DNA of 64,000 nucleotides from Kitasatospora sp. NBC_01250 (lineage in GTDB: Bacteria > Actinomycetota > Actinomycetes > Streptomycetales > Streptomycetaceae). The notes under the pieces were generated by a model. The model searched no databases. It was not told where the DNA came from and saw nothing but the letters and a program-made list of their open reading frames with translations. A program made the translations under genes and the position numbers. Of this stretch, positions 4,687 through 56,280 are shown one piece after another. The stretch spans positions 1,798,001 through 1,862,000 of the forward strand of contig NZ_CP108476.1 in the NCBI RefSeq assembly GCF_036226465.1, in the 5' to 3' direction. Position 1 is the first letter of the stretch. The number at the start of each line of letters is the position of its first letter.

Positions 4687-4766
4687 ACCCTGCCAGCGCC
4701 GGTGAGCAGCAGAAACCCCTACGGCCCCCCGGCCACCCCTACCCAATCCCCTGCCGACCCCTGACC
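4687..4766 (-). promoter_or_regulatory. Promoter of the loading PKS with four AGGGG repeats
   Basis: On the minus strand AGGGG occurs four times (plus-strand CCCCT at 4758, 4748, 4736 and 4716), at spacings of 10, 12 and 20 bp. A CAGGGT hexamer at 4692-4687 lies 23 bp after the last copy, where the other cluster promoters have TAGNNT. This gives a leader of about 35 nt before the ATG at 4644. Assignment as promoter and activator site is inference from the shared layout. Confidence 0.6.
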
Positions 4767-4890
4767 GAATTCCGGCGCCGGAAAAGGCATTTCCGAAAAG
4801 CCGCGCCGGCCGTGCGGAAATACCCTCCGACGGCTGCGGTAATGCCGGAACCGCCATTTCCGGACCGGCGCGCCAGCGCCGTGCCCCGGG

Positions 4891-6528
4891 TCAGCCCGCT
4901 TCGAGGAACGGGGCGAGCAGGCGCGGCACGGCCTGCTCGGCGAACGCGAGCCCCTCGGCCACGCCCACGTCGCGCACCCGGTAGGCGCCGCCGCCCGCGG
5001 ACGTGGTCGCGGTGAGCGTGAGCAGCCCCAGGCGGCGCTGGAACGGGGACTGGCTGATGCTCCAGCCGATCACCCCGGCGCGCTCCAGGGCGACCGTGCG
5101 CCGGGCGAAGGTGCCCGCGCGGGTCACCAGGTAGTCGCCGACCAGCGCGTGGCCCAGCGCCCGGTGGGCGTCAACGGCCAGCCAGAGCGCCACGGGCAGC
5201 AGGACGACGGCGACCGCGGCGGCGACCGGCAGCAGCACCGGCAGCCAGATGCCGGGCAGCGCCAGGGCTCCGGCGGTGAGGGCGACCAGCGCCACCGCCC
5301 GGTTGATCCGGCGCCGCCGGGCCGCCGCCGGGTGCGGGCGCAAGGCGGCCGTCAGCGGGGACGGCTGATCGTCCGGCAGCAGTGCGCCGACCACCCGCAG
5401 GGCGTGCGCGCGCGGCGCGGCCGGCAGCAGGGCGCCGCGGGTACGGTTCTCCTCGGCGCTGCCGAGGCCGGTGGCGATGGCGTTCAGCCGCGCACCGCCG
5501 GCGCGGCGCAGCAGGAACGGTTCGACCAGTTCGACGCCGCGCAGCCGGCGTTCCTCGATGGAGACCGAGCGGTGGATCCACAGCCCGCGCCGCACCCGCA
5601 GGATGCCGCCCTCCTCGCGCTCCAGGCGGTAGCCGTACCAGCCTTCGAGGTACTGGCCGACCGCGGCCAGCGTGCCGAGCACGGCCACCAGCAGCAGCGC
5701 CAGCGGCAGCGCGAGCCACAGCGGCACGGCGGTGAAGGCGGTGGTCAGCCCGTGCACCAGGCCCAGCTTCAGCGGGTCGACACCCAGGTCGTGCAGGATC
5801 TTGTAGGCGGTGCCGAGGAGCGCGAAGAGGCTGCCGACCCCCCAGATGGTGAGCGGGGCGTAGCGCAGCCACTGCCAGGACAGTTCGGCGAGCGGCGGCG
5901 GCGCCTCGGGGCCCGGCTCGCCGGGCCGCTGGGCGATCAGGGTGGCCCGGCGGTTGAGCAGGTCCTGGCGCAGCGCGCCGGCCTGGACCGCGGTGACGCC
6001 GTCCAGCCGCAGCGCCCGGCCGGCCGAGCCGCCGTGCGCACCGGCGCCGATGCTGACGGTGGCGAGCCCGAGCAGGCGGTGCAGCGGACGGGCGGTGATG
6101 TCCGCGCTGCGGATGCGCTCCAGCGGGACGGCGCGGCGGCTGCGGAAGAGCAGGCCCGAGCGCAGCTCCAGCCGCTCGGTGGTGATCCGGTAGCCGGTGG
6201 TCAGCAGCCGGGTCAGGTTGAGGCCGGCCACCACCAGGAAGGCCGTGGTGAGCGAGGCGAGGGTGATCAGCGCCTGCAGGCCGGGCCGGCCGCCGGTGCC
6301 GAGCAGGGTGGCGAGGGTGGTGAAGGCGGGCGGGGCCAGCCAGGCCAGGTGGACCGGGATCAGCCGCGGACTGAGCCGCTGCCAGGCGGGCTCGTTGGGC
6401 TGGGCGGCCTCGGCGGGCCGGGTGGGCCCGGCGGCTGCGGCGCCGTCCGTCGTCCCGGCGGTGTCGGCGCTCCCTGCGCTCCCTGCGGTCCCGGCCGTCC
6501 CGGCCGGTTCCTGGGTGCCGGTGCTCAC
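4891..6528 (-). CDS. Membrane PH-domain protein, YdbT-like
   Basis: 545-residue membrane protein of the bacterial PH (bPH2/YdbT) family. The N-terminus is a low-complexity Ala/Gly/Thr stretch; hydrophobic helices then alternate with PH-like blocks that start with patterns such as GYRITTERLELRSG, GYRLEREEGG and GDYLVTRAGTF. Three PH repeats can be made out. The GTG start at 6528 overlaps the stop of the upstream partner (GTGA), behind GGGGGA, so the two are translationally coupled. In Bacillus subtilis the ydbST pair belongs to the SigW envelope-stress regulon and protects against an antimicrobial peptide. The biochemical role is unknown. Lying between the starter ligase and the loading PKS, it may protect the membrane against the polyene; that is inference. 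Confidence 0.85.
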   Translation of the reverse strand: MSTGTQEPAGTAGTAGSAGSADTAGTTDGAAAAGPTRPAEAAQPNEPAWQRLSPRLIPVHLAWLAPPAFTTLATLLGTGGRPGLQALITLASLTTAFLVVAGLNLTRLLTTGYRITTERLELRSGLLFRSRRAVPLERIRSADITARPLHRLLGLATVSIGAGAHGGSAGRALRLDGVTAVQAGALRQDLLNRRATLIAQRPGEPGPEAPPPLAELSWQWLRYAPLTIWGVGSLFALLGTAYKILHDLGVDPLKLGLVHGLTTAFTAVPLWLALPLALLLVAVLGTLAAVGQYLEGWYGYRLEREEGGILRVRRGLWIHRSVSIEERRLRGVELVEPFLLRRAGGARLNAIATGLGSAEENRTRGALLPAAPRAHALRVVGALLPDDQPSPLTAALRPHPAAARRRRINRAVALVALTAGALALPGIWLPVLLPVAAAVAVVLLPVALWLAVDAHRALGHALVGDYLVTRAGTFARRTVALERAGVIGWSISQSPFQRRLGLLTLTATTSAGGGAYRVRDVGVAEGLAFAEQAVPRLLAPFLEAG

Positions 6529-7025
6529 GTCGCGTCCCCCGGGGTGGCCTGGGTGACGGCGGTCAGGTGCTCCACGACCTCGGCGGCCCGGTGCCGGTCC
6601 AGCCCCCGGATGGTCACGGCGCCCGCGACGGAGGCCGTGGTGACCTTGACGGCGCTGAGCCCGAAGAGCTGCTCCAGCGGGCCGCGCACGGTGTCCACGG
6701 TCTGGATCCGCGACAGCGGCGCCACCCGCCGGCGCTGCCAGAGCCAGCCGGAGGCGGTGTAGACGGCCTGGTCGGTGGTCTCCCAGCGGTGCACCCGGTA
6801 GCGCCACAGCGGCATGACGACCAGGTAGCAGAGTCCGGGCAGCAGGACGGCCAGGAAGAGCGGGCCGAAGACGAACCGGGCCGGCGGGATGAGCAGGTCG
6901 AGCACGCCCAGCACCAGCGCGGTGGGCATCGGGATCAGTGCGGCCCGCACCACCCACCAGGCGATGGCCCGGCGCTCGACCCGGTGGCGGGGCGGGCGCA
7001 GGCGAGGTCCGTCGGAGTGGGGCAC
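6525..7025 (-). CDS. Membrane PH-domain protein, YdbS-like
   Basis: 166-residue protein with two hydrophobic helices near residues 25-75 followed by one bacterial PH domain (VHRWETTDQAVYTASGW through VTIRGLDRH), the normal size and layout of YdbS. It starts at GTG 7025 behind a strong GGGAGGAA. Its stop overlaps the start of the YdbT-like gene, so the pair forms one unit. It follows the acyl-CoA ligase by 92 bp on the same strand with no terminator seen between, so it is probably read from the ligase promoter near 8670. Function in the family is poorly known; membrane-stress or antimicrobial protection is the best-supported theme. Confidence 0.85.
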   Translation of the reverse strand: MPHSDGPRLRPPRHRVERRAIAWWVVRAALIPMPTALVLGVLDLLIPPARFVFGPLFLAVLLPGLCYLVVMPLWRYRVHRWETTDQAVYTASGWLWQRRRVAPLSRIQTVDTVRGPLEQLFGLSAVKVTTASVAGAVTIRGLDRHRAAEVVEHLTAVTQATPGDAT

Positions 7026-7117
7026 GGTGTCGTTCCTCCCGCTCGGGGGCCGCGGCCGGCCGGCTGCGGGGCAAGGAGGCGGCCCGGCGACTGGCGCCCC
7101 GCCGCCCGGACGATCGA

Positions 7118-8563
7118 TCAGGCGATATCCCGATGAGTCGTCATATTACTTGCGTTTTCGGCGAGCTCCGTCATCCGGCGCTTGTCCGGCTTGCCGTTGC
7201 GGTTGAGCGGGAACTGCTCCACCACGATCACCCGGTTGGGCTGCTCGTAGGCCGGCAGCAACTCGCCCAGCACCGCGCGCCAGTGGGCGGCGTCGCGCTG
7301 CTGCTCGTCCTCCACGAAGAAGACCAGGCTGCTGCCGCGGCGCTCGTCCGGCAGCGGCACGATCCGCACCGAGCAGCCGCCGGCCGCCGCCTTGCGCTCG
7401 ACGATCTCGGGGTAGAGCGTGTAGCCGTTGCGGTGCACCGCGAACTTGCGGCCCAGCACGAAGAGGTTGCCCGCCGCGTCGAGGTAGCCGAGGTCCCCGG
7501 TGCGGAAGACGCGCTGGTCCACCGGGTCGATCCCGCCGTCCGGGGTGAGGTAGCCGACCATCACGTCCGGTGTCTCAACGAGCAGTTCGCCCACCTCGCC
7601 GGCCGGCACCTCGTTCTCCTCGTCGTCCACCACCCGCACCCGCAGGCCGTCCATGACCTGCCCGCAGGAGACGGCGTTGTCGCTGGTGGCGAAGGCCACG
7701 TTGCCCGCCTCGGTGCTGCCGTAGCTGTCCAGCAGCGGCAGGCCGAAGCGTTCGACGTAGCGCTCCACCAACGACTGGTCGAGCGGGGCGGCGCCGCTGC
7801 AGAACATCCGCACCGTGCGCAACGCCCCGGCCAGGGAGGGCTTCTGGCCGATGATGTTCAGCATGCTGCGGTAGCTGGCCGGGGTCGCGTCCAGCACGGT
7901 GGCGCCCGAGTGCCCGGCCATCCGCAGCGCCCGGTCGGCGCGCTTGTAGGGGGCGATCACCAGTGACCCCTGGACGATCCAGGCGATCAGCACCATCGAC
8001 AGGCCGTACTGGTGCGAGAAGGGCAGCAGCGGCAGCAGGACGTCGTCGGCGCGGTGGCCCATGTGCCGGGCGTTGCGCTCCAGGTTGGCCAGCATCCGGC
8101 CGCCGTTCTTGACGATGCCCTTGGGCTCGCCGGTCGACCCGGAGGACCACATGATCAGCGCGTCGTCCAGGTCGGACCAGGCGTCGAACGAGAGCCGCTC
8201 CTCGGTGACCGCCAAGTCGGGTGCGGCGGAGATCAGTTCGTAGAGGTAGACGGGCTCGGTGTCGGCCGGCACCGGGGCGTCGTCGTCCACCAGGACCAGC
8301 TTGGTGCCGGCCCGCCGGATGATCGAGCCGGTGGCCTCCTGCTTCTCCTGCTGGTCCACCAGCACCACCGAGGCGCCCAGGTGCATCAGGGCGAAGAGGA
8401 CCGAGACATAGGCGATCGAGTTGCCGGCCTTCAGCAGTACCCGGTCGCCCAGTCCCACGCCCCGCTCCCGCAGGACCTGGGCGATCCGCAGGGTGTCCTG
8501 CTCGAACTCGGCGAGCGTCGCTGCGGAGTTCTCCGCGAGGATCTTGGCCGGCATCGGCTCCAC
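7118..8563 (-). CDS. Acyl-CoA ligase, probably for the nitrogen-bearing starter acid
   Basis: 481-residue ANL-superfamily enzyme: ATP activates a carboxylic acid as acyl-AMP, which is then passed to CoA. Motifs seen are the P-loop (SSGSTGEPKG), DSYGSTEAGN, RTGDLGYLD, and the C-terminal catalytic Lys (PLNRNGKPDK). It lacks a carrier domain. With the neighbouring monooxygenase, nitrilase-type amidase and discrete AT, the likely substrate is 4-guanidinobutyrate or a similar omega-amino acid, by analogy with azalomycin and ECO-02301-type pathways. The start is uncertain: GTG 8563 gives the full frame, while ATG 8554 is an alternative starting MPAKILAENS. The last dozen residues (tail ending TTHRDIA) are coded by less G+C-rich DNA and extend past the usual ligase end. 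Confidence 0.88.
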   Translation of the reverse strand: MEPMPAKILAENSAATLAEFEQDTLRIAQVLRERGVGLGDRVLLKAGNSIAYVSVLFALMHLGASVVLVDQQEKQEATGSIIRRAGTKLVLVDDDAPVPADTEPVYLYELISAAPDLAVTEERLSFDAWSDLDDALIMWSSGSTGEPKGIVKNGGRMLANLERNARHMGHRADDVLLPLLPFSHQYGLSMVLIAWIVQGSLVIAPYKRADRALRMAGHSGATVLDATPASYRSMLNIIGQKPSLAGALRTVRMFCSGAAPLDQSLVERYVERFGLPLLDSYGSTEAGNVAFATSDNAVSCGQVMDGLRVRVVDDEENEVPAGEVGELLVETPDVMVGYLTPDGGIDPVDQRVFRTGDLGYLDAAGNLFVLGRKFAVHRNGYTLYPEIVERKAAAGGCSVRIVPLPDERRGSSLVFFVEDEQQRDAAHWRAVLGELLPAYEQPNRVIVVEQFPLNRNGKPDKRRMTELAENASNMTTHRDIA

Positions 8564-8669
8564 TCATCCTTCTCGTGCTCGGCGGCCCACCGCGGCCGCC
8601 CGCATGCCCGGGCGGCCGGGGGTGGTGTCAAAGGGGGATTCGGGGCGGGCCGGGCCCGCACGTAACCGG

Positions 8670-8717
8670 AGGCTACCGAGCACCCGGCAGGGGCCGGAAC
8701 CCCTAACCGACCCCAGT
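8670..8717 (-). promoter_or_regulatory. Promoter of ligase-ydbS-ydbT unit, 11-bp GGGG direct repeat
   Basis: Minus strand reads TGGGG then, 11 bp on, AGGGG (plus CCCCA at 8711 and CCCCT at 8700). A TAGCCT hexamer follows at 8675-8670, 24 bp after the second repeat. The distance to the ligase start is about 105 bp. The DNA from this site to the AT stop at 8826 holds only a short 6-bp hairpin at 8734-8753. Confidence 0.65.
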
Positions 8718-8825
8718 CGGCCGACCGTCAACTACCCACATCCATAAGTGGGTTGGGCACGGCGAAAGCGCCGCCCGCGGATTCCGTCCGGGCGGTGCGG
8801 CCACCGGCGCGGCGGCCCGGCCCGG

Positions 8826-9758
8826 TCAACCACCGGGCTTGAGCGCCGACTCCGGGGCGAGGGTGAGGGCGGTGAGGCTCTCGGTGGTGCACTTGAGGCG
8901 GCGCAGCAGGCGGTCCCGGCCGACGATGGCGATGCGCCGCACGCCCTGCGCGACCAGCGTGTCCACCACGCCGGGCCAGCGCATCGGCCGGGTGTAGCCG
9001 CCCAGGATCCACTCCCGGGCCTGCTCGGCGGTGGTGACCAGCGAGCCGTCCTGGTCGGAGACGATCGGCAGCAGCGGATCGCGCAACCGGTGGCCGCCGA
9101 GCACCTCCTGGTCGATCCGCTCACGCAGCGGGGCGAAGATCGCCGCGTGAGCGGGCGGGCGCATGGTGTAGAGGGAGTAGCCGCCGACCGCACCGATCCG
9201 CTGCTTGAAGCCCTCCAGCGCCCGCTCGTCGAGGGACACCATGTGCATGTCGTGGTCCAGGTACGAGGAGATCTCGAACCACTCGTCGGCCACGGCCAGT
9301 TCGGCCAGCAGCTCGTCGAGGGCGGCCGGGCCGACCTTCACGAAGGAGTGGGTGACGATCCCGGTGTGCTGCTCGGCGAAGTACTCGCGCTCGCAGCGGG
9401 CGAGTTCGGCGACCAGCAGCACGCACTCCTCGAACGGCAGCACACCCGCGTGCGCGGCGGCGGCCATCTTGCCGAAGCTCACCCCCGCGCAATGGTCGAC
9501 CGGGCCCGGCAGTTGCGCGCCGCCCCACTCGACCAGGGCGAGCGAGGCGACGAACGAGGTGATCTGTGCGACCTCGGCATAGTCGTCCTCGCTCTGCCGC
9601 AGGGCGTCGAAGATCCGGTAGCCGAGTACCTCGTCGGCGATCGCAAAGCGTTTTCTGGCCTGCCTGTTGACCACCATGAACCGACCGAAGTCGGCGAATC
9701 GCGACGGGCCCATGGCGGGAAAGACGATAGCGCTGCTACCCGGCTCACCGGTCGTCAT
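8826..9758 (-). CDS. Discrete acyltransferase for loading the starter onto the PKS ACP (VinK-like)
   Basis: 310-residue stand-alone enzyme of the malonyltransferase (FabD/PKS-AT) fold. The start is taken at ATG 9758 (MTTGEPGSSAIVFPAMG) because the fold begins there; the frame extends 18 codons upstream without a better start. The nucleophile elbow reads GVSFGK (Ser 94) in place of the common GHSxG. A likely catalytic His is in PPAHAAIF (His 204). The Arg that binds the malonyl carboxylate is not evident, which fits a non-malonyl substrate. Family members such as VinK move an unusual starter onto the N-terminal ACP of the first PKS; here the acceptor would be the ACP at the start of the 1-4644 protein. 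It has its own repeat-containing promoter, divergent from the nitrilase gene. Confidence 0.85.
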   Translation of the reverse strand: MTTGEPGSSAIVFPAMGPSRFADFGRFMVVNRQARKRFAIADEVLGYRIFDALRQSEDDYAEVAQITSFVASLALVEWGGAQLPGPVDHCAGVSFGKMAAAAHAGVLPFEECVLLVAELARCEREYFAEQHTGIVTHSFVKVGPAALDELLAELAVADEWFEISSYLDHDMHMVSLDERALEGFKQRIGAVGGYSLYTMRPPAHAAIFAPLRERIDQEVLGGHRLRDPLLPIVSDQDGSLVTTAEQAREWILGGYTRPMRWPGVVDTLVAQGVRRIAIVGRDRLLRRLKCTTESLTALTLAPESALKPGG

Positions 9759-9793
9759 GTCAGCCCGTTCTCTCGGCCGTGTCGGTCGCCCCG

Positions 9794-9839
9794 AACCTAT
9801 CGGCAGGGACAATCCCCGCCACCCCTGTCCGACCCCTAG
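9794..9839 (-). promoter_or_regulatory. Acyltransferase promoter with 11-bp AGGGG direct repeat
   Basis: Minus strand has AGGGG twice, exactly 11 bp apart (plus CCCCT at 9833 and 9822). TAGGTT at 9799-9794 lies 22 bp after the second copy. The predicted leader to ATG 9758 is about 30 nt. It is back to back with the rightward promoter at 9893-9941. Confidence 0.65.
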
Positions 9840-9892
9840 GCCCCCTTCTCCCCGTGCGCCGGCGCGCCTTTCACCGCCGACCCGAACGCCGC

Positions 9893-9941
9893 CCTAGGGG
9901 CACGTTAGGGGTTGCCCGGATTATTCGGACACCCATAGCTT
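9893..9941 (+). promoter_or_regulatory. Promoter of nitrilase-monooxygenase operon, 11-bp AGGGG direct repeat
   Basis: Plus strand has AGGGG at 9896 and 9907 (11 bp), with TAGCTT at 9936-9941, 24 bp after the second copy. The 18 bases around the repeat closely match the minus-strand sequence at 50802-50785 in front of the large PKS gene. Confidence 0.7.
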
Positions 9942-10011
9942 CGGCGGCGGCAATGCCCGTCCCGGATGATTCCGCTGCCGATGATTCCACCGCACCACGA
10001 GGAAGCCCGCG

Positions 10012-10815
10012 ATGAGAATTGCTTGCTGGCAGGCCGCGTGCGGCTCCCCCGACGTTCCGCACCTGCTGGAGCGGCTTCGGACGGCGGCCCGGCAGGCGGC
10101 CGAGGCGGGCGCGGAGCTGCTGGTCGCCCCGGAGATGACCGTGGGCGGCTACCCGCTGCGGCCCGGCATGCTGGCCGAGGCCCGTGAACCGGCCGGTGGC
10201 CGGCACGGCGCCGCAGTGGCCGGGATCGCCCGCGAGCACCGCATCGCGCTGCTGTACGGCTGGCCGGAGAGCGACGGGGACGCGGTCTACAACGCGAGCC
10301 GGCTCGTCTCCGCCGAGGGCGTCCCGCTGGCCGGCTACCGCAAGGCGCACCTGTTCGGCGAGGTGGACCGGTCCCGGTTCGTGCCGGGCGACAACGGCGT
10401 GGTGCAGGCGCGGCTCGGCGAACTGACGGTCGGTCTGCTGATCTGCTACGACGTCGAGTTCCCGGAGGCCGTCCGGGCCCACGCCCTGGCCGGCACCCAA
10501 CTGCTGCTGGTGCCGACCGCACTGATGAACCCCTGGCACGTGGTCGCGCGCACCCTGGTGCCCGCCAGAGCCTTCGAGAGCCAGCTCTACATCGCCTACG
10601 CCAACTGGATCGGCGAGCGCGGCGGCCTGGACTTCTGCGGGCTGAGCACCGTGGCGGCCCCGGACGGCACCCGGCTCACCCGGGAGGAGCCCACCGAGGG
10701 CCTGCTCCTGGCCGAGATCGACCCGGCGGTGGTGGCCAAGGCGCGCCGCGACACTCCCTACCTCCATGACCGGCGCCCCGAGCTCTACCAGGGCCTGCCC
10801 GACCGCCTGGGCTGA
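10012..10815 (+). CDS. Nitrilase-superfamily amidohydrolase (starter amide to acid)
   Basis: 267-residue carbon-nitrogen hydrolase with the full Glu-Lys-Cys triad: Glu41 (APEMTVGG), Lys111 (YRKAHLFG) and Cys145 (LICYDVEFPEA). Members cleave linear amides or nitriles to acids. It starts at ATG 10012 behind GAGGAAG and is followed after 33 bp by an amino-acid 2-monooxygenase gene, whose product would be the amide substrate. The likely reaction is 4-guanidinobutyramide (or 5-aminovaleramide, 4-aminobutyramide) to the free acid, which the ligase at 7118-8563 would then activate. The family and triad are seen directly; the substrate is inferred from context. Confidence 0.9.
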   Translation: MRIACWQAACGSPDVPHLLERLRTAARQAAEAGAELLVAPEMTVGGYPLRPGMLAEAREPAGGRHGAAVAGIAREHRIALLYGWPESDGDAVYNASRLVSAEGVPLAGYRKAHLFGEVDRSRFVPGDNGVVQARLGELTVGLLICYDVEFPEAVRAHALAGTQLLLVPTALMNPWHVVARTLVPARAFESQLYIAYANWIGERGGLDFCGLSTVAAPDGTRLTREEPTEGLLLAEIDPAVVAKARRDTPYLHDRRPELYQGLPDRLG

Positions 10816-10848
10816 CCGCGCGAGCCGGGTCCCGAAAGGTGTCCACCG

Positions 10849-12534
10849 ATGTCCCTCAGTGCCCGCGCATATCCGGCCGCGCGTGATGTGACCGCACCCC
10901 TGACGATGTTCGGCCCCGACTTCCCCTTCGCCTACGACGACTGGCTGCGCCACCCCGCCGGACTCGGCTCGCTGCCCGCCGCGCGGCACGGCACGCCGGT
11001 GGCCGTGGTCGGCGGCGGCATGGCGGGCCTGGTCGCGGGCCACGAGCTGCTGCGCCTGGGGCTGCGCCCGGTGCTCTACGAGGCCGGTGAGCTGGGCGGA
11101 CGGATGCGGTCGGTGCCGTTCGCGGCGGACCCGCGGTACGCCGCCGAACTGGGTGCGATGCGCTTCCCGGTCGCGGCCAGCACGCTGTTCCACTACATCG
11201 ACGCGCTCGGCCTGCGCACCCGCCCCTTCCCCAACCCGCTGGCCCCGGGCACCCCCAGCACCCTGGTGCACCTGGGCGGCGAGCGGCACTACGCGCGGGC
11301 CGTCGAGGACCTGCCGCCGGTCTACCAGCAGGTGGCCGACGCCTGGCAGAAGACGCTGCTGGACCAGGCCGAGCTGGCGGTGATGGAGGACGCCGTGCGC
11401 CGGCGCGACACCGTGCTGCTCAAGGCGGTGTGGAACCGTATGGTGCGCACCCTGGACGACCAGTCCTTCTACGGCTTCCTGGCCGCCTCACCGTACTTCC
11501 GCTCGTTCCGGCACCGGGAGCTGTTCGGCCAGGTCGGCTTCGGCACCGGCGGCTGGGACACCGACTTCCCCAACTCGATCCTGGAGGTGCTGCGGGTGGT
11601 GTTCACCGGCGCCGACCAGGACCAGGTGGGCATCGTCGGCGGCACCGGGCAGCTGGTCCAGGGCCTGTGGCGGCGGCCCGCGGGCCGGGCCGCGCACTGG
11701 CCGGCCGACACCTCGCTCGCGAGCCTGCACGAGGGCACCCCCCGTCCAGCGGTGACCGCGCTGCGGCGGGTGGCCGGGGGCGTGCTGGTGGAGGACGCGG
11801 GCGGCGGGCGGGCGAGCTACCCGGCGGTGGTCCACACCCCGCACGTGTGGACGCTGCTGAGCCAGATCGACTGCGACCCCGCACTGCTCTCCACCGAGCA
11901 GTGGACGGCCGTCGAGCGGACCCACTACATGGGCTCCTCCAAGCTGTTCGTGCTCACCGACCGGCCGTTCTGGCGGGACCGGGACGGTGCGACCGGCCGC
12001 GACACGATGAGCATGACGCTCAGTGACCGGATGCCGCGCGGGGTCTACCTCTTCGACGAGGGCCCCGACCGGCCCGGGGTGATCTGCCTCTCCTACACCT
12101 GGAACGACGACTCGCTGAAGGTCGCGACGCTGAGCGACGAGCAGCGCCTGGAGGTGCTGCTCGGGGCGCTGCGCGAGATCTACCCCGGGGTCGATCTGCG
12201 GCGGCACATCGTCGGACCGCCGGTCTCGGTGACCTGGGAGACCGACCCGCTGTTCATGGGCGCCTTCAAGGCCAATCTGCCGGGGCAGTACCGCTACCAG
12301 CGCCGGCTGTTCGGCCAGTTCGTCCAGGACGGCCTGCCGCCCGAGCGGCGCGGGCTCTTCCTGGCCGGCGACGACGTCTCCTGGACGGCCGGCTTCGCCG
12401 AGGGCGCGGTCACCACGGCGCTGAACGCCGTCTGGGGCGTGCTGCACCACCTCGGTGGCGCCACCAGCCCGGAGAACCCCGGTCCGGGGGACCTCTTCGA
12501 CCAGCTCGCTCCGGTGCTGCTGCCGGAGGACTGA
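10849..12534 (+). CDS. FAD-dependent amino-acid 2-monooxygenase (Arg/Lys type)
   Basis: 561-residue flavin amine-oxidase-fold protein. The FAD-binding site reads VAVVGGGMAG (residues 51-60) followed by an E-x-x-x-x-x-G-G-R pattern (YEAGELGGRM). The C-terminal FAD motif is LFLAGDDVSWTAGFAEGA. The length and the ~50-residue extension before the Rossmann fold match lysine/arginine/tryptophan 2-monooxygenases, which decarboxylate an amino acid oxidatively to the one-carbon-shorter amide. Start ATG 10849 has AAAGGTG upstream. Arginine giving 4-guanidinobutyramide is the usual case in guanidino-polyene clusters. Lysine or ornithine cannot be excluded from sequence alone. Confidence 0.88.
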   Translation: MSLSARAYPAARDVTAPLTMFGPDFPFAYDDWLRHPAGLGSLPAARHGTPVAVVGGGMAGLVAGHELLRLGLRPVLYEAGELGGRMRSVPFAADPRYAAELGAMRFPVAASTLFHYIDALGLRTRPFPNPLAPGTPSTLVHLGGERHYARAVEDLPPVYQQVADAWQKTLLDQAELAVMEDAVRRRDTVLLKAVWNRMVRTLDDQSFYGFLAASPYFRSFRHRELFGQVGFGTGGWDTDFPNSILEVLRVVFTGADQDQVGIVGGTGQLVQGLWRRPAGRAAHWPADTSLASLHEGTPRPAVTALRRVAGGVLVEDAGGGRASYPAVVHTPHVWTLLSQIDCDPALLSTEQWTAVERTHYMGSSKLFVLTDRPFWRDRDGATGRDTMSMTLSDRMPRGVYLFDEGPDRPGVICLSYTWNDDSLKVATLSDEQRLEVLLGALREIYPGVDLRRHIVGPPVSVTWETDPLFMGAFKANLPGQYRYQRRLFGQFVQDGLPPERRGLFLAGDDVSWTAGFAEGAVTTALNAVWGVLHHLGGATSPENPGPGDLFDQLAPVLLPED

Positions 12535-12599
12535 GGGTCCGTCACCCGACGGGCCGGCAGGCGCGCAAGACGCTCAGCACACGAACCACGGGGGAAGCG

Positions 12600-13034
12600 A
12601 TGGAACTACTGGAACAGGGAATCCGCGGCGAGCCGGCATGGACCGTGCCGTGCAGGGCGACCGGCCGGAGCGGTGCGGACAAAGTCATGGCACAGTTGAT
12701 CAGCGCAGCCCAGCCCACGTGGGTCGAACTCCTCACGGGCCTGGACACCACGGAGTTCGAGGAGCTGCTGCACGCCCTGCGGCCGCACACCGAGGCGGAC
12801 GCACCGCGGGTGGGGCGACGCTGGACGCTCTGCCTGGCGGACCGGGTCCTGCTGGTCTCGGTCTACCGCCGCACCAACCTGACCATGCGTGAGGTCGCCG
12901 TGGTGTTCGGGATCTCCAAGTCGGCCGCCGACCGGATCGTCGGCCAGCTCGGGCCGCTGCTCGACCTGCCGCCGGTGCGCCACCGGCGCTCCCGGCTGAC
13001 CCTGCGGCTGGACCGCATGACCGACGAGGCGTGA
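12600..13034 (+). CDS. Short HTH protein like the N-terminal part of an IS5-type (DDE_Tnp_4) transposase
   Basis: 144-residue protein. The second half (RRWTLCLADRVLLVSVYRRT... then VFGISKSAADRIVGQL) matches the helix-turn-helix domain at the front of IS5/DDE_Tnp_4 transposases. The reading frame stops just after the HTH, with no catalytic DDE part and no further transposase sequence downstream. It follows the monooxygenase by 65 bp, starts at ATG 12600 behind a purine-rich GGGGGAA, and is followed by a strong hairpin terminator, so it is placed like a normal last gene of the starter operon. It may be a decayed transposase or a domesticated DNA-binding protein; I cannot decide. An internal ATG at 12690 (MAQLISAAQP) is an alternative start. 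Confidence 0.6.
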   Translation: MELLEQGIRGEPAWTVPCRATGRSGADKVMAQLISAAQPTWVELLTGLDTTEFEELLHALRPHTEADAPRVGRRWTLCLADRVLLVSVYRRTNLTMREVAVVFGISKSAADRIVGQLGPLLDLPPVRHRRSRLTLRLDRMTDEA

Positions 13035-13073
13035 ACTGACGTTTGATCAGAAGTGAACAACAGGTGAACCAGC

Positions 13074-13115: not shown

Positions 13116-13125
13116 TTGGCGTTCC

Positions 13126-13183: not shown

Positions 13184-13826
13184 CACCTCAACTGGCAGCC
13201 CTCGGCGCCCTAACGGGACAACCGCACCGCACCGCCGGACCGGCGCCGCCCGACCCGCCGCGACCGGAGTGAAACCTGGTGGACCATCAAACTCTGTCTG
13301 AAATCTGAGAGTTAACACGGTGTTTCCCACCCTCGTGCCGCCCCGGCACGGGCCGATCGCTGCCCGATTTGTCGCGCCATGTCGGATCAATCACCCCAAC
13401 CCGCCCCCCGGGCGACTCCCGGGCCGGCCGCCATCCTCAATTCTTGATCAGTTCTCCACGACAGACGTGTCCCGGTCACCCGAGCAGTGTTATGTTTCCG
13501 ACCAGCTGTCCCGCAACTCGCCAAGGCCGGACCACAACGGCCTACCTGTGCGCGGATATGGAGTGCTGCGGCCCCACCCGTCCGGTGCGGACCGACTACT
13601 CACCGCTGCCCAGGTGAATTCCAGTCATTAGAATGTCGTCAAGATTTTCGTGCATTTCATCTGGGAGAAATGTGTTCCAGCACGGAGTGCGGCCGGCCTT
13701 TCCTCTGCAAAAGACCGCCGTGCCGGAGTCCCCCCTCACCCCCCGGGCCGAATCCGACTTAGTGGAACCGTCGACCTCGAGACCTCGCCTGGGCCGGATT
13801 CAGGACCCGAAGCAAGGAGCAGCCAT
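13184..13826 (+). other. Non-coding leader region before the LAL regulator
   Basis: No credible gene here: the open frames lack ribosome sites and are short. The DNA is locally richer in A+T than its surroundings. A TAGAAT hexamer at 13629-13634 matches an actinomycete -10 box and would leave a leader of roughly 185 nt, but no good -35 is seen. None of the AGGGG repeats found at the other cluster promoters is present. Confidence 0.4.
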
Positions 13827-44400: not shown

Positions 44401-47400
44401 GCCGAGGCCAGCGCCTGGCGGATCACCCGCTGCTGGGACGGCCCGTTGGGCGCGGTCAGGCCGTTGGACGCGCCGTCCTGGTTGATCGCCGAGCCGCGCA
44501 CGACCGCGAGCACCGGGTGCCCGTGGCGGCGGGCGTCGGAGAGCCGCTCGACCAGCAGCATGCCCGCGCCCTCGGCCCAGCCGGTGCCGTCCGCGTCGTC
44601 CGAGAACGACTTGCAGCGCCCGTCGCGGGCCAGGCCGCGCTGGCGGCTGAAGTCGACGAAGGTGTCGGGCTTGGCCATCACGGTCGCGCCGCCGGCCAGC
44701 GCCATCGTGCACTCGCCGGTCCGCAGCGCCTGGATCGCCCAGTGCAGCGCGACCAGCGAGGAGGAGCAGGCGGTGTCGACGGTGACCGCCGGGCCCTCCA
44801 GGCCCAGCACGTAGGAGACGCGGCCCGAGGCGATGCTGCCCGAGTTGCCGGTGCCGAGGTAGCCCTCGACGCCCGGCGGGATGGCGGGCAGCCGGGTGAT
44901 GTAGTCGTGGTACATGATCCCGGCGAAGACGCCGGTCCGGCTGCCGCGCACCGAGTCCAGGTCAATGCCGGCCCGCTCGAAGGCCTCCCAGGAGGTCTCC
45001 AGGAGCAGCCGCTGCTGCGGGTCCATCGCCAGCGCCTCGCGCGGCGAGATCCCGAAGAAGGCCGGGTCGAAGTCGCCGGCGCCGTGCAGGAAGCCGCCCT
45101 CGCTGGTGTACGAGGTGCCCGGGTGGTCCGGGTCCGGGTGGTAGAGGTTCTCGACGTCCCAGCCGCGGTCGGTGGGGAAGGCGGAGATGCCGTCGGCCCC
45201 GGCGGCGATCAGCTGCCACAGGTCCTCGGGCGAGCGCACCCCGCCCGGGTAGCGGCAGGCCATGCCGACGATGGCGATCGGGTCGTCCGAGGCGGCGACC
45301 GGCGCGGGGGCGGCCTCGGTGGCGGCCTCGCCCAGGCCCAGCGCCTCGGTGTGCAGGTAGCCGGCGAGTGCGGCGGGGGTCGGGTAGTCGAAGACGACGG
45401 TGGCCGGCAGGCGGACCCCGGCCACGCTGTTCAGCCGGTTGCGCAGCTCGACCGAGGTCAGCGAGTCGAAGCCGATCTCGCGGAAGGCCTTGGCCGGGTC
45501 GACGGTGTGGGCGCCCGCGTGGCCCAGCACCAGGGCGACCTGGGTGCGGACCAGCTCGACGAGGGCGCGCTGCTGCTCCTCCTCGGTGAGCGCGAGCAGG
45601 CGCTGCACCAGCGTGGCGTCCCCGCCCGCGCCGCCGGCGGCGGCCACCCGGCGGACCGGGGTGCGCACCAGGCCCGCCAGCACGGCGGGCAGGCGGCCGG
45701 TCCTGGCCTGGTGGCGCAGCCCGGCCTGGTCGAGCCGGATCGGCACCAGGGTGGCGGCGGGCCGGACGAGCGCCGCGTCGAACAGGGCCAGGCCCAGCTC
45801 GCCGGTGAGCGGGGCGACGCCGTTGCGGGTCATCCGCTCGACGTCGGCCTCGTCCAGGGTTCCGGCCATGCCGCCGGCCCACAGGCCCCAGGCCAACGAG
45901 GTGGCCGGCAGCCCGGCCGCCCGGCGCTGCTCGGCGAGCCCGTCCAGGAAGGCGTTGGCCGCCGCGTAGTTGCCCTGCCCGGCCGCGCCGAACACCCCGG
46001 CGGCGGAGGAGAAGAGCACGAACGCGGCAAGGTTCTGATGCTTCGTCAGTTCGTGCAGGTGCCAGGCCGCGTCCACCTTGGGTCGCAGCACCGCGTCGAC
46101 CCGCTCCGCCGTCAGCGAGGAGACGATGCCGTCGTCCAGCACACCGGCGGTGTGCACCACGGCGGTCAGCGGGTGCTCCAGCGATCCGAGCAGCCCGGCC
46201 AGCGCCTCCCGGTCCGCCACGTCACAGGCCGCGAACCGCACCGAGGCGCCCAGTTCGGTCAGCCCGGCCGCCAACTCCGCCGCGCTCTCGGCCGCTTCAC
46301 CGCGCCGCGACACCAACAGCAGCCGACGCACCCCGTACTCGCTCACCAGATGCCGCGCGAAGAGACCACCCAGCGTCCCCGTCGCACCGGTCACCAGCAC
46401 CGTGCCCTCCGGGTCCAGCCGCACCGGCGACACCTCGTCACCGGCCGCCGAAGCCCGCACCAGACGCGGCACATACGCCGCACCCGCACGCAGCGCCAGC
46501 TGCGGCTCGCCCAGCTCCACCGCACCGGGCAGCGCCGAAAGCGACGCGTCGTCGACGTCCACCAGCACGATCCGGCCCGGGTTCTCCGACTGCGCCGAGC
46601 GCAGCAGGCCCAACGCCGCCGACGACGGCAGATCGGCGACATCCTCACCCGGCAGGGCGGCCACCGCACCGCGGGTCACCACCACCAGGCGGGAATCGGC
46701 GAACGCCTCCTCCGCCAGCCACTCCTGGAGCCGGGCGAGCACCTCCTGGACGGCCGTGCGGGCCTCCTCGGCCGAGCCCGCGGCAGCGCCGATCGGCAGG
46801 TGGAGGGTGGTGGGCGCGGAGCCGTCGGTGCCCAGGCGCGCGGCCAGGGCGGCCAGGCTCTGCGGTGCGTCGACGCCGTGCCCGGCGGCGAGCAGGCCGG
46901 CGGCGAGGCCGAGCGGGTCGGGGCCGACGACGGTGTGCCGCTCGGCGGGCGCGTCGGCGGGCTCGGGCAGCGTGAGGGGCGTCCAGGTGAGTTCGAACAG
47001 CGCCTCGGCGACGGCGGCGGCGAGGCGGTCGGCCTCCTGGAGCTGGACGGGGGCGATCGGGCGCAGCACCAGGCTCTCGACGGTGGAGACCAGCGCGCCG
47101 GCGGCGTCCACGGCGGTGAGCGCGACGGAGTCGGGACCGGCCGGGGCGATCCGCACCCGCAGCGTGGCGGCGCCGACCGCGTGCAGCGCGACCCCGGTGA
47201 AGGAGAACGGCAGCCGCCCCTGCGCGGGGCCGCCCTGCCCGGTGGTGAGGGCCACGGCGTGCAGGGCCGCGTCGAGCAGCGCGGGGTGCAGGCCGAAGCC
47301 GGCCGCCTCGCCGGCGGCGGACTCGGGCAGCGCGACCTCGGCGAAGACCTCCTCGCCGCGCACCCAGGCGGCGCGCAGGCCCTGGAAGACCGGGCCGTAG

Positions 47401-50400
47401 CCGAAGTCGGCCTCGGCGAGCGCCTGGTAGAAGCCGGTGAGCTCGACCGGGGCGGCCTCGGCGGGCGGCCAGACGGCGGTCTCGAAGCCGGCCGGGGCGG
47501 TGGTGGTGCCGGTGCCGAGCAGGCCCTCGGCGTGCCGGGTCCACGGCTCGTCGTCCTCGGCGTCCTCCGGGCGGGAGTAGACGGTCAGCGGGCGCAGCCC
47601 GGTCGCCTCCGCCCGGCCGACCCACAACTGCACCTGGACGCCGCCCGTTTCGGGCAGCACCAGCGGCGCCGCCAGGGTCAGCTCCTCCAGCCGGTCGCAG
47701 CCGACGTGGTCGCCGGCCCGCATCGCCAGTTCGACGAAGGCGGTGCCGGGCAGCAGCACCGAGCCGGCCACCGCGTGGTCGGCCAGCCAGGGGTGGGTGT
47801 CGACCGCGAGGCGGCCGGAGAAGAAGAAGCCGTCGCTGTCGGCGAGTGCCACGACCGCGCCGAGCAGCGGGTGGTCGGCAGAGCCGAGGCCGATCGCGCG
47901 CGCGTCGGCCGGCAGCGGGGCCGAGCGGTCGATCCAGTACTCCTCGTGCTGGAAGGCGTAGGTGGGCAGGTCGACCCGCCGGGCGCCGCGGCCGGCGAAG
48001 ACGGCCGGCCAGTCGAGCCGGACCCCGCGCACGAACAGCCGCGCCAGGCCCGCGGTGAACGCCTCGGCCTCCGGGCGTCCGGGCCGCAGCACCGGGGCGA
48101 GGACGGCCTCCTTGGTGACGCACTCCTGGGCCAGGGCGGTGAGGGTGCCGTCGGGCCCCAGCTCCAGGAAGGTGCGCACGCCCTCGGCCTCCAGGCCGGC
48201 CACGGCGTCCTGGAACCGCACGGCCTCGCGGACGTGGCGCACCCAGTGGTCCGCGGAGCAGAGCTCCTCGGCGGTGGCGAGCCGGCCGGTGCGGGTGGAG
48301 ACGATCGGGATCCGCGGCGCGGCGTAGCTCAGCCGCTCGGCGACGGCGCGGAAGGTGTCGAGCATGCCGCTCATCAGCGGCGAGTGGAAGGCATGGCTGA
48401 CGGTGAGGCGCTTGGTCTTGCGGCCCAGCTCCGCGAGCTGCCCGGCCACCGCCAGGACGGCCGGCTCGGCGCCCGAGAGCACCACGGCCGAAGGCCCGTT
48501 GACGGCGGCGATCGCCACGTCCGCGCGGCCCGCGAGCAGCGGGAGCACCTCGGCCTCGGCGGCCTGCACCGCCAGCATCGCGCCGCCGGCGGGCAGCGCC
48601 TGCATCAGCCGGCCGCGCGCGGCCACCAGCGCGGCGGCGTGGCCGAGGGTCAGCACACCGGCGACGTGCGCGGCGGCGATCTCACCGATCGAGTGCCCGG
48701 CCAGGTAGTCCGGGCGCACCCCCCAGGACTCGACGAGGCGGAACAGCGCCACCTCGATCGCGAAGAGCGCGGGCTGGGTGTATCCGGTCCGGTGCAGCAG
48801 CTCGGGGTCGGCGACGGCCTCCTTGAGCGGGCGCTCCAGGTAGCGGTCCAGCTCGGCGCAGGCCGCGTCGTAGGCCTCGGCGAACACCGGGAAGGCGTCG
48901 TACAGTTCGGCGCCCATGCCGAGGCGCTGGCTGCCCTGCCCGGCGAAGAGGAAGGCCACCCGGCCCACCGGACCGGTGCTGCCCTGCTGCGCGCCGGCAC
49001 TCTCCTCGCCGCGGGCGAGGGCGGCCACCGCCCGCCGCAGTTCGTCGCGCTCGCCGCCGACCACGACGGCCCGGTGCTCGAAGGCGGCCCGGGTGGTGGC
49101 CAGCGAGAAGCCCACGTCGACCGGGCCCACCGCGGGCCCGGCGTCCAGCAGGGCGAGCAGCCGGGCGGCCTGCTCGGCCAGCGCCTGCTCGGTGCGCCCC
49201 GACAGCACCCACGGCACCACCGGGGTGCGCACGGTCACCGCGGGCTGCTCGGCGGCCTCGTCGGCCGGCGGCGCCTGTTCGAGGATGGCGTGCGCATTGG
49301 TGCCGCTGAAGCCGAAGGAGGAGACGGCGGCGCGGCGCGGTTCCTCGCCCTGCGGCCAGGCCTGCTCCGCGGCGAGCAGCCGCACGGCGCCCGCGGTCCA
49401 GTCGACCACCGGCGAGGGCTGCTCGGCGTACAGGGTGCGGGGCAGCACGCCGTGGCGCATCGCCTCGACCATCTTGATCACACCGGCGACGCCCGCGGCG
49501 GCCTGGGTGTGGTTGAGGTTGGACTTGACCGAGCCGAGCCAGAGCGGGCGGTCCGCGGGGCGGTCCTGGCCGTAGGTGGCGAGCAGCGCCTGCGCCTCGA
49601 TCGGGTCACCGAGCGAGGTGCCGGTGCCGTGCGCCTCGACGGCGTCGACCTGCTGGGGCGTCAGCCGGGCGTCCGCCAGGGCCTGGCGGATGACGCGCTG
49701 CTGCGAGGGGCCGCTGGGGGCGGTCAGGCCGTTGCTGGCGCCGTCCTGGTTGACGGCGGTGCCGCGCACGATCGCCAGCACCGGGTGCCCGTTGCGCCGC
49801 GCGTCGGAGAGCCGCTCGACGAGCAGCATGCCGACGCCCTCGCCCCAGCCGGTGCCGTCCGCACCGGCGGCGAACGCCTTGCAGCGGCCGTCGGCGGCAA
49901 GACCCCGCTGGCGGCTGAAGTCGACGAACGCCTCGGGGGTGGACATCACGGTGACGCCGCCGGCCAGCGCCAGCGTGGACTCGCCGCGGCGCAGCGACTG
50001 GCAGGCCAGGTGCAGGGCGACCAGCGAGGAGGAGCAGGCGGTGTCGATGGTGAGCGCCGGGCCCTCCAGGCCCAGCGTGTAGGCGACCCGGCCCGAGGCG
50101 ATGCTGGCCGAGCTGCCGGTGCCCAGAAAAGCCTCGACGCCCTCCGGCACGGCGTGCAGGCGGGCGGCGTAGTTGTGGTAGATGACACCGGCGAAGACGC
50201 CGGTGCGGCTGCCGCGCAGGGTGGCCGGGTCGATGCCGGCCCGCTCGAACGCCTCCCAGGAGGTGGTCAGGAGCAGCCGCTGCTGCGGGTCCATCGCGAG
50301 CGCCTCGCGCGGCGAGATGCCGAAGAACGCCGGGTCGAACTCGGTGGCCCGGTGCAGGAAGCCGCCCTCGTCGACGTAGGAGGTGCCCGGGTGGTCCGGG

Positions 50401-50651
50401 TCCGGGTGGTAGATGGCGTCGCGGTCCCAGCCGCGGTTGACGGGGAAGGCGTCGACGGCGTCCCGGCCCTCGTGCACCAGGCGCCACAGCTCCTCCGGCG
50501 AGGCGACGTCGCCGGGGAAGCGGCAGGCCATGCCGATGATGGCGATCGGTTCGTGGTCGGCGCTCTCCACCTCCTGGAGGCGCTGGCGGGTCTGCGCCAG
50601 ATCGGCGGTCACCCACTTGAGGTAGTCACGAAGCGTCTCTTCATTCGACAT
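29469..50651 (-). CDS. Type I PKS, four KS-AT-DH-KR-ACP modules
   Basis: 7,060 residues, starting at ATG 50651 ([15 protein letters not shown]) with GAGGTG upstream; the first 30 residues form a coiled-coil docking segment. Approximate landmarks (KS Cys, AT Ser, DH His, KR glycine loop, ACP Ser) are: module 1 at 205, 654, 957, 1422, 1729; module 2 at 1960, 2414, 2715, 3162, 3472; module 3 at 3704, 4150, 4450, 4895, 5203; module 4 at 5434, 5887, 6184, 6634, 6937. All ATs read GHSIGE and HAFH, so malonyl-CoA. All KRs have LDD (B-type), predicting trans double bonds. DH of module 2 has [11 protein letters not shown], off the HxxxGxxxxP pattern. The last 80 residues are a docking tail ending [11 protein letters not shown] that faces the next PKS, 43 bp downstream. 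The protein would build a tetraene segment. Confidence 0.97.
30200..30780 (-). repeat. KR-region duplicate, module 4 copy
   Basis: Nearly identical in DNA to 35411-35991 (module 3), including a stretch of over 150 bases without difference starting at 30376. It covers part of the KR and suggests recent duplication or gene conversion. Confidence 0.8.
35411..35991 (-). repeat. KR-region duplicate, module 3 copy
   Basis: Partner of 30200-30780 at an offset of 5,211 bases. Confidence 0.8.
41061..41272 (-). repeat. KR-region duplicate, module 2 copy
   Basis: Identical by eye over 212 bases to 46287-46498, at an offset of 5,226. It spans the front of the KR and its upstream linker. Confidence 0.85.
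46287..46498 (-). repeat. KR-region duplicate, module 1 copy
   Basis: Partner of 41061-41272. The flanking DNA on both sides diverges, as expected for a conversion tract. Confidence 0.85.
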
Positions 50652-50746
50652 CTGATTGCCCACCTCTTCAACGCATCCAGTCGGCTCACGTCGCGCTTCG
50701 ACGGAATTCACCGGCAGGAATTCGCAGCCACCTCGCCCATGGCATT

Positions 50747-50802
50747 TCGCTAGCCAGATGATGGTCGGGCCCCAGGGGCCCCTCAACCCCTAACCGTCCC
50801 CT
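50747..50802 (-). promoter_or_regulatory. Promoter of the large PKS operon with AGGGG repeats
   Basis: Minus strand has AGGGG three times (plus CCCCT at 50798, 50787 and 50779; spacings 11 and 8 bp). TAGCGA at 50752-50747 lies 26 bp after the last copy. The core closely matches the site at 9893-9914. It lies in the 360-bp divergent gap between the four-module PKS and the ligase-ALAS gene. No clear rightward promoter was found in the rest of that gap (50803-51011). Confidence 0.65.
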
Positions 50803-53810: not shown

Positions 53811-53901
53811 CGCCCGGCGGCCGGCCGGGTGCCCCCGTCACCCGGCCGGCGGCCGTACCCCGCACAGCGGACAGCGGACAGCGATCGACCCTGGAGGTGT
53901 G

Positions 53902-55488: not shown

Positions 55489-55501
55489 GGCAAGTGGCAG
55501 T

Positions 55502-56179
55502 TCACACCGCCAGCAGCCCGTCCTCCAGCGCGCGGACGACGGCCAGGGTGCGGTTGGGGCAGTTCAGCTTGGTCAGCACGTTGCCGACGTGGCGCTTCAC
55601 CCCGTGCTCGGAGATCTCCAGCTGGCGGGAGACCTGCTTGTTGCTCAGGCCCTCGGCCACCAGCCGCAGCACCTCCAGCTCGCGCGGGGTCAGCGCGGCT
55701 CCCGCCGGCGCGCCCACCTGGCCGCCGCGGACCGAGGCCTGGCCGGCCCGCACCAGCAGCTGGCGGGCCAGCGTGCCGGAGACGTGGAACTTGCCCGCCA
55801 TCACGTCGAGGACGGCCTCGCGCAGGGTCTGCGGGTCGAGCTCGGACCAGTCCAGGACGCCCTGGGCCTCGTACTCCGCCAGCGCCGCCGCGTCGATCCC
55901 GTCGGGCCCGTCGACCAGCAGCAGCAGCCGGGCGCCCTGGGCGCAGAGCGCCCGGACGGTCTCCCGGGTGCGGCCGGTGGCCAGCTCGGCCGAGGCGGTC
56001 AGGATCAGGTCGAAGCGCTTCCCTGCCGCCGAACAGGCTTGTCCGCCACCGGGGTTGAACGACTGGACCGCGCCGAGGCGGTCGGGGAAGCGGATCATGC
56101 CCTCGACCCCGAACCGCTGCAGCGCGTTCTCCAGCACCAGGGCGATACTGAGCTGGGTCTGGTCCACCTGAGTTCCCAC
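55502..56179 (-). CDS. Orphan NarL/LuxR-type regulator with degenerate receiver
   Basis: 225 residues. The C-terminal LuxR HTH is clear (LTPRELEVLRLVAEGLSNKQ then ISEHGVKRHVGNVLTKLN). The N-terminal half has the length of a response-regulator receiver, but the usual phospho-acceptor strand reads FDLILTASAE with no Asp at the expected place, and no sensor kinase is nearby. The start is taken at GTG 56179 with AAGGAA upstream; ATG 56209 is in frame but lacks a ribosome site. It converges on the acyl-CoA ligase gene with only 13 bp between stops. A TACGGG direct repeat upstream suggests cluster control. Confidence 0.85.
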   Translation of the reverse strand: MGTQVDQTQLSIALVLENALQRFGVEGMIRFPDRLGAVQSFNPGGGQACSAAGKRFDLILTASAELATGRTRETVRALCAQGARLLLLVDGPDGIDAAALAEYEAQGVLDWSELDPQTLREAVLDVMAGKFHVSGTLARQLLVRAGQASVRGGQVGAPAGAALTPRELEVLRLVAEGLSNKQVSRQLEISEHGVKRHVGNVLTKLNCPNRTLAVVRALEDGLLAV

Positions 56180-56231
56180 GCTTTCGTTCCTTCGACCGAT
56201 CCGGATCAAGACAGTCAGTCACCGGTGGGCC

Positions 56232-56280
56232 AGGCTAACGACGGGGCCTCGGCCGGGACACCCGTAGCCACCCCGTAGCC
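56232..56280 (-). promoter_or_regulatory. Promoter of the orphan regulator with 11-bp GGCTACGGG repeat
   Basis: Minus strand has GGCTACGGG twice at exactly 11 bp (plus CCCGTAGCC at 56272 and 56261). TAGCCT at 56237-56232 lies 23 bp after the second copy. The layout equals that of the AGGGG promoters, but the repeat core differs (TACGGGG rather than TAGGGG). Confidence 0.6.

Follow-up and report, generated by a model that had tools for sequence, protein, structure and literature searches.

Phased G-rich direct repeats at the promoters of a Kitasatospora polyketide cluster are probable operators of its predicted LAL activator

The window analysed here, a stretch of 64,000 nucleotides from Kitasatospora sp. 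NBC_01250 (NZ_CP108476.1, positions 1,798,001 to 1,862,000), is the middle of a polyketide cluster of ~170 kb in a single-contig genome of 9.0 Mb; its subject is a set of short G-rich direct repeats before the biosynthetic genes, and the regulator that may read them. Positions are those of the window unless given as genome positions. On the minus strand, the window contains the 5' part of the gene for a loading polyketide synthase (PKS) (1..4644, extending beyond the window to genome position 1767104), a bPH_2 protein, a starter-unit acyl-coenzyme A (CoA) ligase (7118..8563, Pfam AMP-binding), a VinK-like loading acyltransferase (AT) (8826..9758, Pfam VinK_C on the longer frame 8826-9812), a thioesterase, large PKS genes, an orphan LuxR regulator (55502..56209, LuxR-type helix-turn-helix), and an adenylation-carrier protein resembling non-ribosomal peptide synthetases (56407-59517). 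The plus strand carries a nitrilase-type amidohydrolase and a flavin amine oxidase (10012..12534, Pfam CN_hydrolase and Amino_oxidase), a regulator of the large ATP-binding LuxR-type (LAL) family (13827..16664), a CoA ligase fused to an aminolevulinate-synthase-like (ALAS) domain, and another ligase. By analogy, the nitrilase and amine oxidase pair is a putative source of the starter unit. The starter genes and the ligase-ALAS pair are presumably reminiscent of guanidino/amino polyol polyketides such as ECO-02301.

The repeats are short boxes, mostly AGGGG, for which the 5' base of each box is given below; the gap is counted from the last box to a -10-like hexamer predicted from the sequence. 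Before the loading PKS gene, AGGGG is present at 4762, 4752, 4740, and 4720 (4716..4762, minus strand; spacings 10, 12, and 20, with a degenerate GGGGGG inside the 20-bp gap), and the predicted -10 CAGGGT (4687..4692, minus) follows with a gap of 23 nt. The starter CoA ligase gene is preceded by the pair TGGGG 8715 / AGGGG 8704 (8700..8715, minus; spacing 11 bp) and the predicted -10 TAGCCT (8670..8675, minus; gap 24 nt), and the acyltransferase gene by AGGGG at 9846, 9837, and 9826 (9822..9846, minus), of which 9837/9826 form an 11-bp pair, with TAGGTT (9794..9799, minus) as predicted -10 after 22 nt. On the opposite strand, the pair AGGGG 9896 / AGGGG 9907 (9896..9911, plus; spacing 11 bp) and the predicted -10 TAGCTT (9936..9941, plus; gap 24 nt) stand before the nitrilase operon. 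The large PKS operon has the pair AGGGG 50802 / AGGGG 50791 (50787..50802, minus; spacing 11 bp) and an additional AGGGG at 50783-50779; the open frame 3' of this promoter (29469..50786, minus) has a mechanical start that reaches into the promoter, and the actual start lies further inside. The orphan LuxR gene is preceded by a variant pair, ACGGGG 56276 / ACGGG 56265 (56261..56276, minus; spacing 11 bp), with the predicted -10 TAGCCT (56232..56237, minus; gap 23 nt); this site is weaker than the others. Outside the window, two more 11-bp pairs (5' base of the proximal box at genome positions 1890181 and 1909865) each directly precede a further large PKS gene on the same strand.

The sequence-only reading from which this analysis started had described G-rich direct repeats at six promoters of the window, mainly 11 bp apart and with spacings of 10, 12, and 20 at the loading PKS; all of them were read back in the sequence, and the box coordinates confirm the spacings. 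Five of its -10 hexamers also held, with gaps of 22-24 nt. At the large PKS, it had proposed TAGCGA, which reads TCGCGA in the related cluster L096, i.e., is not kept; the -10 there is probably CATCAT (50758..50763, minus; 23 nt after the 11-bp pair), because this hexamer is in register with the other promoters and appears as CATAAT in L096.

The boxes are rare in the genome. AGGGGN6AGGGG has 23 matches in the 9.0 Mb, five of them inside a ~102-kb part of the cluster. The consensus GGGGNNGGTTAGGGGTT, which was derived partly from the cluster's own sites, has five genome matches with at most one mismatch, all five in the cluster, and the other 19 of the 24 listed matches each carry two mismatches and are all elsewhere in the genome; its reversed control gave seven matches at up to two mismatches. 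Independent support comes from the two outside-window sites, the orthologous promoters, and a background sample. For the latter, a strict layout was defined as a proximal (T/C)AGGGG, a further (A/T/C)GGGG 10-12 bp upstream, and TANNNT, CAGNNT, or CATNAT 22-25 nt downstream. The 174-kb cluster contains seven such sites, a count that is partly built in because CAGNNT and CATNAT were admitted from this cluster, and the variant pair of the orphan LuxR gene falls outside the layout. No strict site was found in the adjoining 50 kb, in 960 kb of background (48 spread 20-kb regions of the same genome), or in reversed sequences; these background zeros, like the result for a second LAL given below, are not built in by the definition. 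A weight matrix combined with the -10, run over 224 kb of joined sequence from this genome, ranked the six 11-bp promoters and the orphan LuxR promoter as its top seven; of nine sites above threshold, the remaining two score lower, the eighth lying inside a PKS gene, and the loading PKS array was missed owing to its other spacings. As the matrix was trained on sites of the cluster and its relatives, this shows cleanness rather than discovery. The genome-wide scan and the background sample support the earlier proposal of a single activator acting via direct repeats at a fixed distance from the -10: motif density is not equal across the genome, and the best consensus matches are confined to the cluster. 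Enrichment restricted to this cluster, which the earlier reading had named as a supporting outcome, holds for the consensus form, but the same layout with 10-bp spacing also surrounds the second LAL, and the motif recurs in other species.

Five further genomes carry the cluster, with a LAL at 74-85% identity; the five nearest clusters among named genomes belong to three Streptacidiphilus, a Kitasatospora, and a strain labelled Saccharothrix sp. ST-888. Two of these clusters match G170 and G154, both placed in the window's genus, by having their sites at identical contig positions. The label of the last record (L058, NZ_JYJF01000110.1) looks wrong, as its site positions are those of G154 and it carries the window's cluster. 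At up to two mismatches, the nitrilase site is present in all five relatives and the ligase site in four. At the loading PKS, a four-box array stands at the equivalent place in 5/5 relatives, each with CAGGCT as -10, and the AT promoter has three-box arrays in four of them and two boxes in L069, with TAGGCT as -10 in 5/5; these two promoters also use 10- and 12-bp spacing in the relatives. The large PKS site of the window is kept in four of five, with CATCAT or CATAAT 22-24 nt after the pair, and none was seen in the draft genome G001. Beyond the window, the site before the PKS beginning at genome position 1909721 was read in 5/5 relatives, and that before the PKS beginning at 1890135 in three, plus one further match in G002. 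Eleven more distant Streptomyces clusters with the ligase (L060-L066, L070-L073) showed neither a LAL in the fetched loci (flanks of at most 10 kb) nor a site at up to two mismatches.

The LAL gene (13827..16664, plus) encodes 945 amino acids from 13827, with an N-terminal AAA_16 ATPase (E 7.4e-14, on the longer frame 13650-16664) and a C-terminal LuxR helix-turn-helix region matching GerE (E 1.7e-12). A PDB sequence search with this protein returned 13 matches, all of them LuxR-type DNA-binding domains of response regulators and none MalT. We consider it likely that the repeats are operators of one activator, the cluster's own predicted LAL (MalT-like), for all seven biosynthetic promoters. 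The sequence-only reading had named the LAL and the orphan LuxR regulator as candidates, and the evidence favors the former, which is kept in five relatives and found near the motif elsewhere. The orphan regulator (55502-56209) lies in the cluster, has a LuxR-type helix-turn-helix, and is itself preceded by a repeat pair and a -10, as would suit an activator regulating itself via the TACGGG variant. However, its best matches in the five motif-keeping relatives reach only E 3e-17 to 7e-16 (40-44% identity) and include no ortholog, its nearest real homolog is a 56% paralog in its own genome, and its recognition helix differs from that of the LALs, which makes this role highly improbable. Because the relatives keep the motif and show no ortholog, the orphan regulator is likely a target and not the activator, judging from the sequence comparison, and the variant site suggests that its gene may also be under LAL control. 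The 56% homolog, the only close one found, lies at genome position 8208854-8209546 (plus) within an open frame of 1118 amino acids.

The motif was also found in other clusters of the family. There are 45 occurrences of the exact form TAGGGGN5TAGGGGTT, spread over 27 of 394 family genomes; 19 of them are in seven genomes with this cluster type (G168 being assigned to it only by a LAL at 73% identity) and 26 in 20 other genomes. With LAL genes defined at E <=1e-40, a LAL gene is found no more than 10 kb away for nine of these 26 (against 0.16 expected) and no more than 100 kb away for 17 (against 1.39), but these expected numbers overstate independence, as several of the motif clusters look orthologous (e.g., G376, G191, G124, and G117, by like promoters). 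Some of the motif clusters are more distant guanidino clusters. Among 20 regions read, the frame 3' of the site is PKS-like or matches the loading PKS in eight (G307, two in G117, two in G376, G344, G292, and G124); the remaining regions have other frames, and one yielded no frame. TANNNT was counted by offset at 28 non-redundant exact sites, some of them from this cluster type: 19 occurrences fall at offsets 22-25, and two at any other offset between 0 and 41. No other observation speaks as strongly as this constant gap for the boxes being parts of promoters. Among 150 places listed from a longer list for TAGGGGN{0,20}TAGGGGTT, the periods of 11 (n = 31), 10 (n = 14), and 12 (n = 10) were observed, with extra peaks at 15, 18, 21, and 24 that are probably repeats in coding DNA. 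These data also bear on the idea that the repeats are a chance product of G-rich DNA beside real promoters. The DNA is 74.6% G+C, and runs of GGGG are frequent in it; yet the reversed exact pattern has three occurrences in the same 394 genomes against 45, the boxes are conserved by position in relatives and fixed in their offset to the -10, and random genome regions do not show the density of the cluster, so that an origin by chance is extremely improbable.

The strongest result concerns a second LAL, because nothing about its sites had been used before. The genome encodes one more LAL, with 39% identity to the first, and it was picked by its protein only. Its 80-kb flanks contain four strict sites, all of them 10-bp pairs; three were traced to a downstream gene (an AMP-binding plus carrier protein, a PKS, and a P450), and the fourth points away from the P450 gene. 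The flanks of 10 further LALs were also compared with permuted patterns; these LALs had been selected from the protein only, although their genomes were known to contain a site elsewhere. TAGGGG with the -10 requirement ranked first of 30 permutations at one, two, and three mismatches. Because the 10-bp layout surrounds the second LAL and the motif marks clusters of other species, sequence comparison supports assigning the motif to a class of regulators and not just to this one cluster. The second type I PKS locus, with its LAL and four 10-bp sites, is located outside the window at genome position 2627693-2710488, and its adenylation-carrier protein resembles by eye that of the window at 56407-59517.

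Several observations weigh against assigning the boxes to LAL proteins. Without the -10 requirement, TAGGGG ranked first around the 10 further LALs only at one mismatch, and 7th and 23rd of 30 at two and three mismatches, and the strict layout is present at only four of these 10 LALs. Nine of the 26 exact sites outside this cluster type have no LAL (E <=1e-40) on their contig; some of the contigs concerned are short, in contrast to those of G040 (673 kb) and G289 (355 kb). In G006, no LAL was found genome-wide at E 1e-40, its site being near a contig end. No site at up to two mismatches was found with distant LALs (L059 and L068; fetched loci of Streptantibioticus, 39%, and Kibdelosporangium, 36%). 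Furthermore, the small open reading frame (ORF) 12600-13034 and other conserved proteins also co-occur with the motif in the five relatives, and genes with a BTAD domain, typical of SARP (Streptomyces antibiotic regulatory protein) activators, are found at ~6 kb from a site in G168 and at ~28 kb in G383; in the present genome, a BTAD match (genome position 1915906-1916343) lies ~6 kb beyond the last site of the cluster.

Another candidate reader of the boxes is the small ORF, or else an unlinked global regulator. The ORF lies between the oxidase and LAL genes and is kept at 68-78% identity in 5/5 relatives, but no convincing match to it was found in 40 regions around sites or LALs of other clusters (best E 0.007), and a global regulator would not account for the absence of sites from 960 kb of background; we regard either version as very unlikely. 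The ORF (plus strand) encodes 144 amino acids with the look of a helix-turn-helix by eye and without an NCBIfam match, and it is possibly, as a guess, a domesticated N-terminus of a transposase.

A SARP-type activator, encoded by the BTAD gene just past the cluster edge, would be another reader of 11-bp repeats. SARP operators are heptamer direct repeats with ~11-bp period and ~4-bp spacers near the -35 region (PMC5930380, PMC10972967, PMC6510168), and the period observed here agrees with that of SARP and SARP-LAL regulators such as ActII-ORF4, DnrI, and PimR (PMC10972967, PMC6510168). The SARP heptamers TCGAGNN and CGGCAAG are unlike the present boxes, and the PimR operator does not overlap the -35. 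The edge gene itself (genome position 1913284-1916724, minus; 1146 amino acids) is outside the window, and no BTAD match lies in the window among 29 listed of the 32 in this genome, in agreement with the earlier statement that the window has no SARP gene. In G006, an exact site with TAGCCT 23 nt downstream (L200, G006:C7, locus 10182) stands before a SARP-like frame, which would fit the SARP explanation. BTAD genes were searched in 11 genomes in total (one set of eight and one of seven, four in both), where they number 12-32 per genome, so that a few would be expected near a site by chance; among the matches listed, they are no closer to sites than their numbers predict, except at the present cluster edge and in G168. 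In the seven genomes with a LAL within 10 kb of a site, for which the listing was complete, none of 117 BTAD matches is within 100 kb of the site or on its contig. The G383 gene has no counterpart on the G246 contig bearing the same cluster, the edge gene has no match in the corresponding region of G005, and among 24 listed of the 27 BTAD matches in G005, none is on the cluster contig. The last SARP repeat lies ~8 bp from the -10, whereas the gap here is 22-25 nt. Taken as a whole, we consider a SARP-type activator unlikely.

Among known activators, MalT is close to the predicted LAL. The sites bound by E. coli MalT are repeats of GGGGA(T/G)GAGG in the neighborhood of the -35 region (PMC7567727), and its active form is an ATP-bound oligomer (PMC7567727, PMC5015266). 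MalT of E. coli and Klebsiella is the founding LAL-type ATP-dependent activator, with asymmetric G-rich direct-repeat boxes near the -35 (PMC7567727, PMC6099782, PMC9628970); two or more asymmetric G-rich boxes in direct repeat are also found here. In contrast, the present boxes are (T/C)AGGGG and do not have the MalT-box sequence, the 10-12 bp period and the 22-25 nt gap are features of the present sites, and biosynthesis would be controlled instead of maltose genes. The Actinoplanes MalT site is an inverted repeat (TCATCC-5nt-GGATGA), unlike the direct repeats here. MilO of mildiomycin, a LuxR-family activator with three direct repeats, is similar to the present case (PMC11784345), while the sites of SCO6993, a LAL of S. 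coelicolor, are short palindromes without a common consensus, and the proposed site of TpdR, a Rhodococcus LAL, is a 15-nt direct repeat of another sequence (PMC9628970, PMC6099782); not all LALs read G-boxes. A LAL activator with G-rich direct repeats is already known in kind from MalT and, reportedly, from NemR. The box sequence, the phasing, the fixed gap, and the spread over many clusters were not found in the literature searched, subscription papers being mostly outside it.

NemR (Li et al. 2019) is the LAL activator of nemadectin biosynthesis, from a type I PKS cluster, and its operator reportedly has the consensus TGGGGTGKATAGGGGGTA. This would be two GGGG boxes 10-11 bp apart, very similar to the ligase site, while flanks and cluster differ, and it suggests that an operator of this class may already have been mapped. 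At up to one mismatch, TGGGGTGKATAGGGGGTA has a single match in the 394 genomes, located ~40 kb from a LAL, against five matches of the reversed form, and none in the present genome, which does not confirm the reported consensus.

The predicted LAL would bind tandem (T/C)AGGGG boxes, asymmetric and at least two per promoter, and would recruit RNA polymerase to the seven biosynthetic promoters together. With the -10 hexamer set at -12 to -7, the proximal box maps to about -40 to -36 and the next box to about -51 to -47; the regulator would then be placed immediately before the -35 hexamer, along a single face of the helix. The -35 position would follow the proximal box directly and often has TTG in these sites. 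The sequence-only reading had placed the activator over the -35 region; its fixed promoter position stands, but with an assumed 17-bp spacer the -35 would begin just beyond the end of the proximal box and would not be covered by it. As for MalT, ATP-dependent oligomers would place one helix-turn-helix domain on each box, and the three- and four-box arrays before the AT and loading PKS genes would fit an oligomer with several DNA-binding heads.

LAL activators are present in many type I polyketide clusters and have been used to raise yields and to wake silent clusters (PMC7105598); ~19 were reported by 2016, of which AveR and PikD alone had received detailed study (PMC5015266). With an arrangement of boxes and -10 recognizable from the sequence, one could tell the operons under LAL control, the ends of a cluster, and the promoter bases to change. 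In the present cluster, this arrangement brings four PKS promoters and the genes for starter supply, spread over ~107 kb, under a single predicted activator, and it is found again around the second LAL of the same genome.

A wider proposal, which we offer tentatively and consider rather doubtful, is that LAL activators of modular polyketide clusters share a common operator code, in which the STVEQHLTR helix would read (T/C)AGGGG boxes with one-turn phasing, 22-25 nt from the -10, and two LALs in one cell would be kept apart by spacing. The STVEQHLTR recognition helix is nearly invariant in LALs near sites, and it is also common to most other LALs aligned. The spacing idea is based on the 11-bp pairs at 7/7 strict sites of this cluster and the 10-bp pairs at 4/4 sites of the second LAL; against it, the cluster's own loading PKS array has spacings of 10, 12, and 20, and the AT and loading PKS promoters of the relatives use 10 and 12. 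If such a code were true, the regulon of almost any such LAL could be read from sequence alone.

Beside the loading PKS gene, the bPH_2 frame (4891-7074, minus; 727 amino acids) encodes bacterial PH domains and is found at this place in the five relatives as well. It is also present at 47-52% identity in other LAL/PKS clusters (G117, G376, G124, and G040), and is an odd companion of a PKS.

Finally, autoregulation of the LAL gene via the boxes was considered and rejected, as the 480 nt upstream of it have no pair facing the gene in 6/6 genomes; the level of LAL is probably set by another signal, outside the loop. In L058 only, TAGGGG boxes ~12 bp apart occur upstream of the LAL gene on the opposite strand, facing the small ORF. 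In an alignment of the six genomes, this upstream region (~13347-13826) showed, by eye, a common block around GTGTTATGTT, followed by a GACAG..TGTCCCG-like inverted repeat, and the GTGTTATGTT block is perhaps the site of whatever controls LAL.

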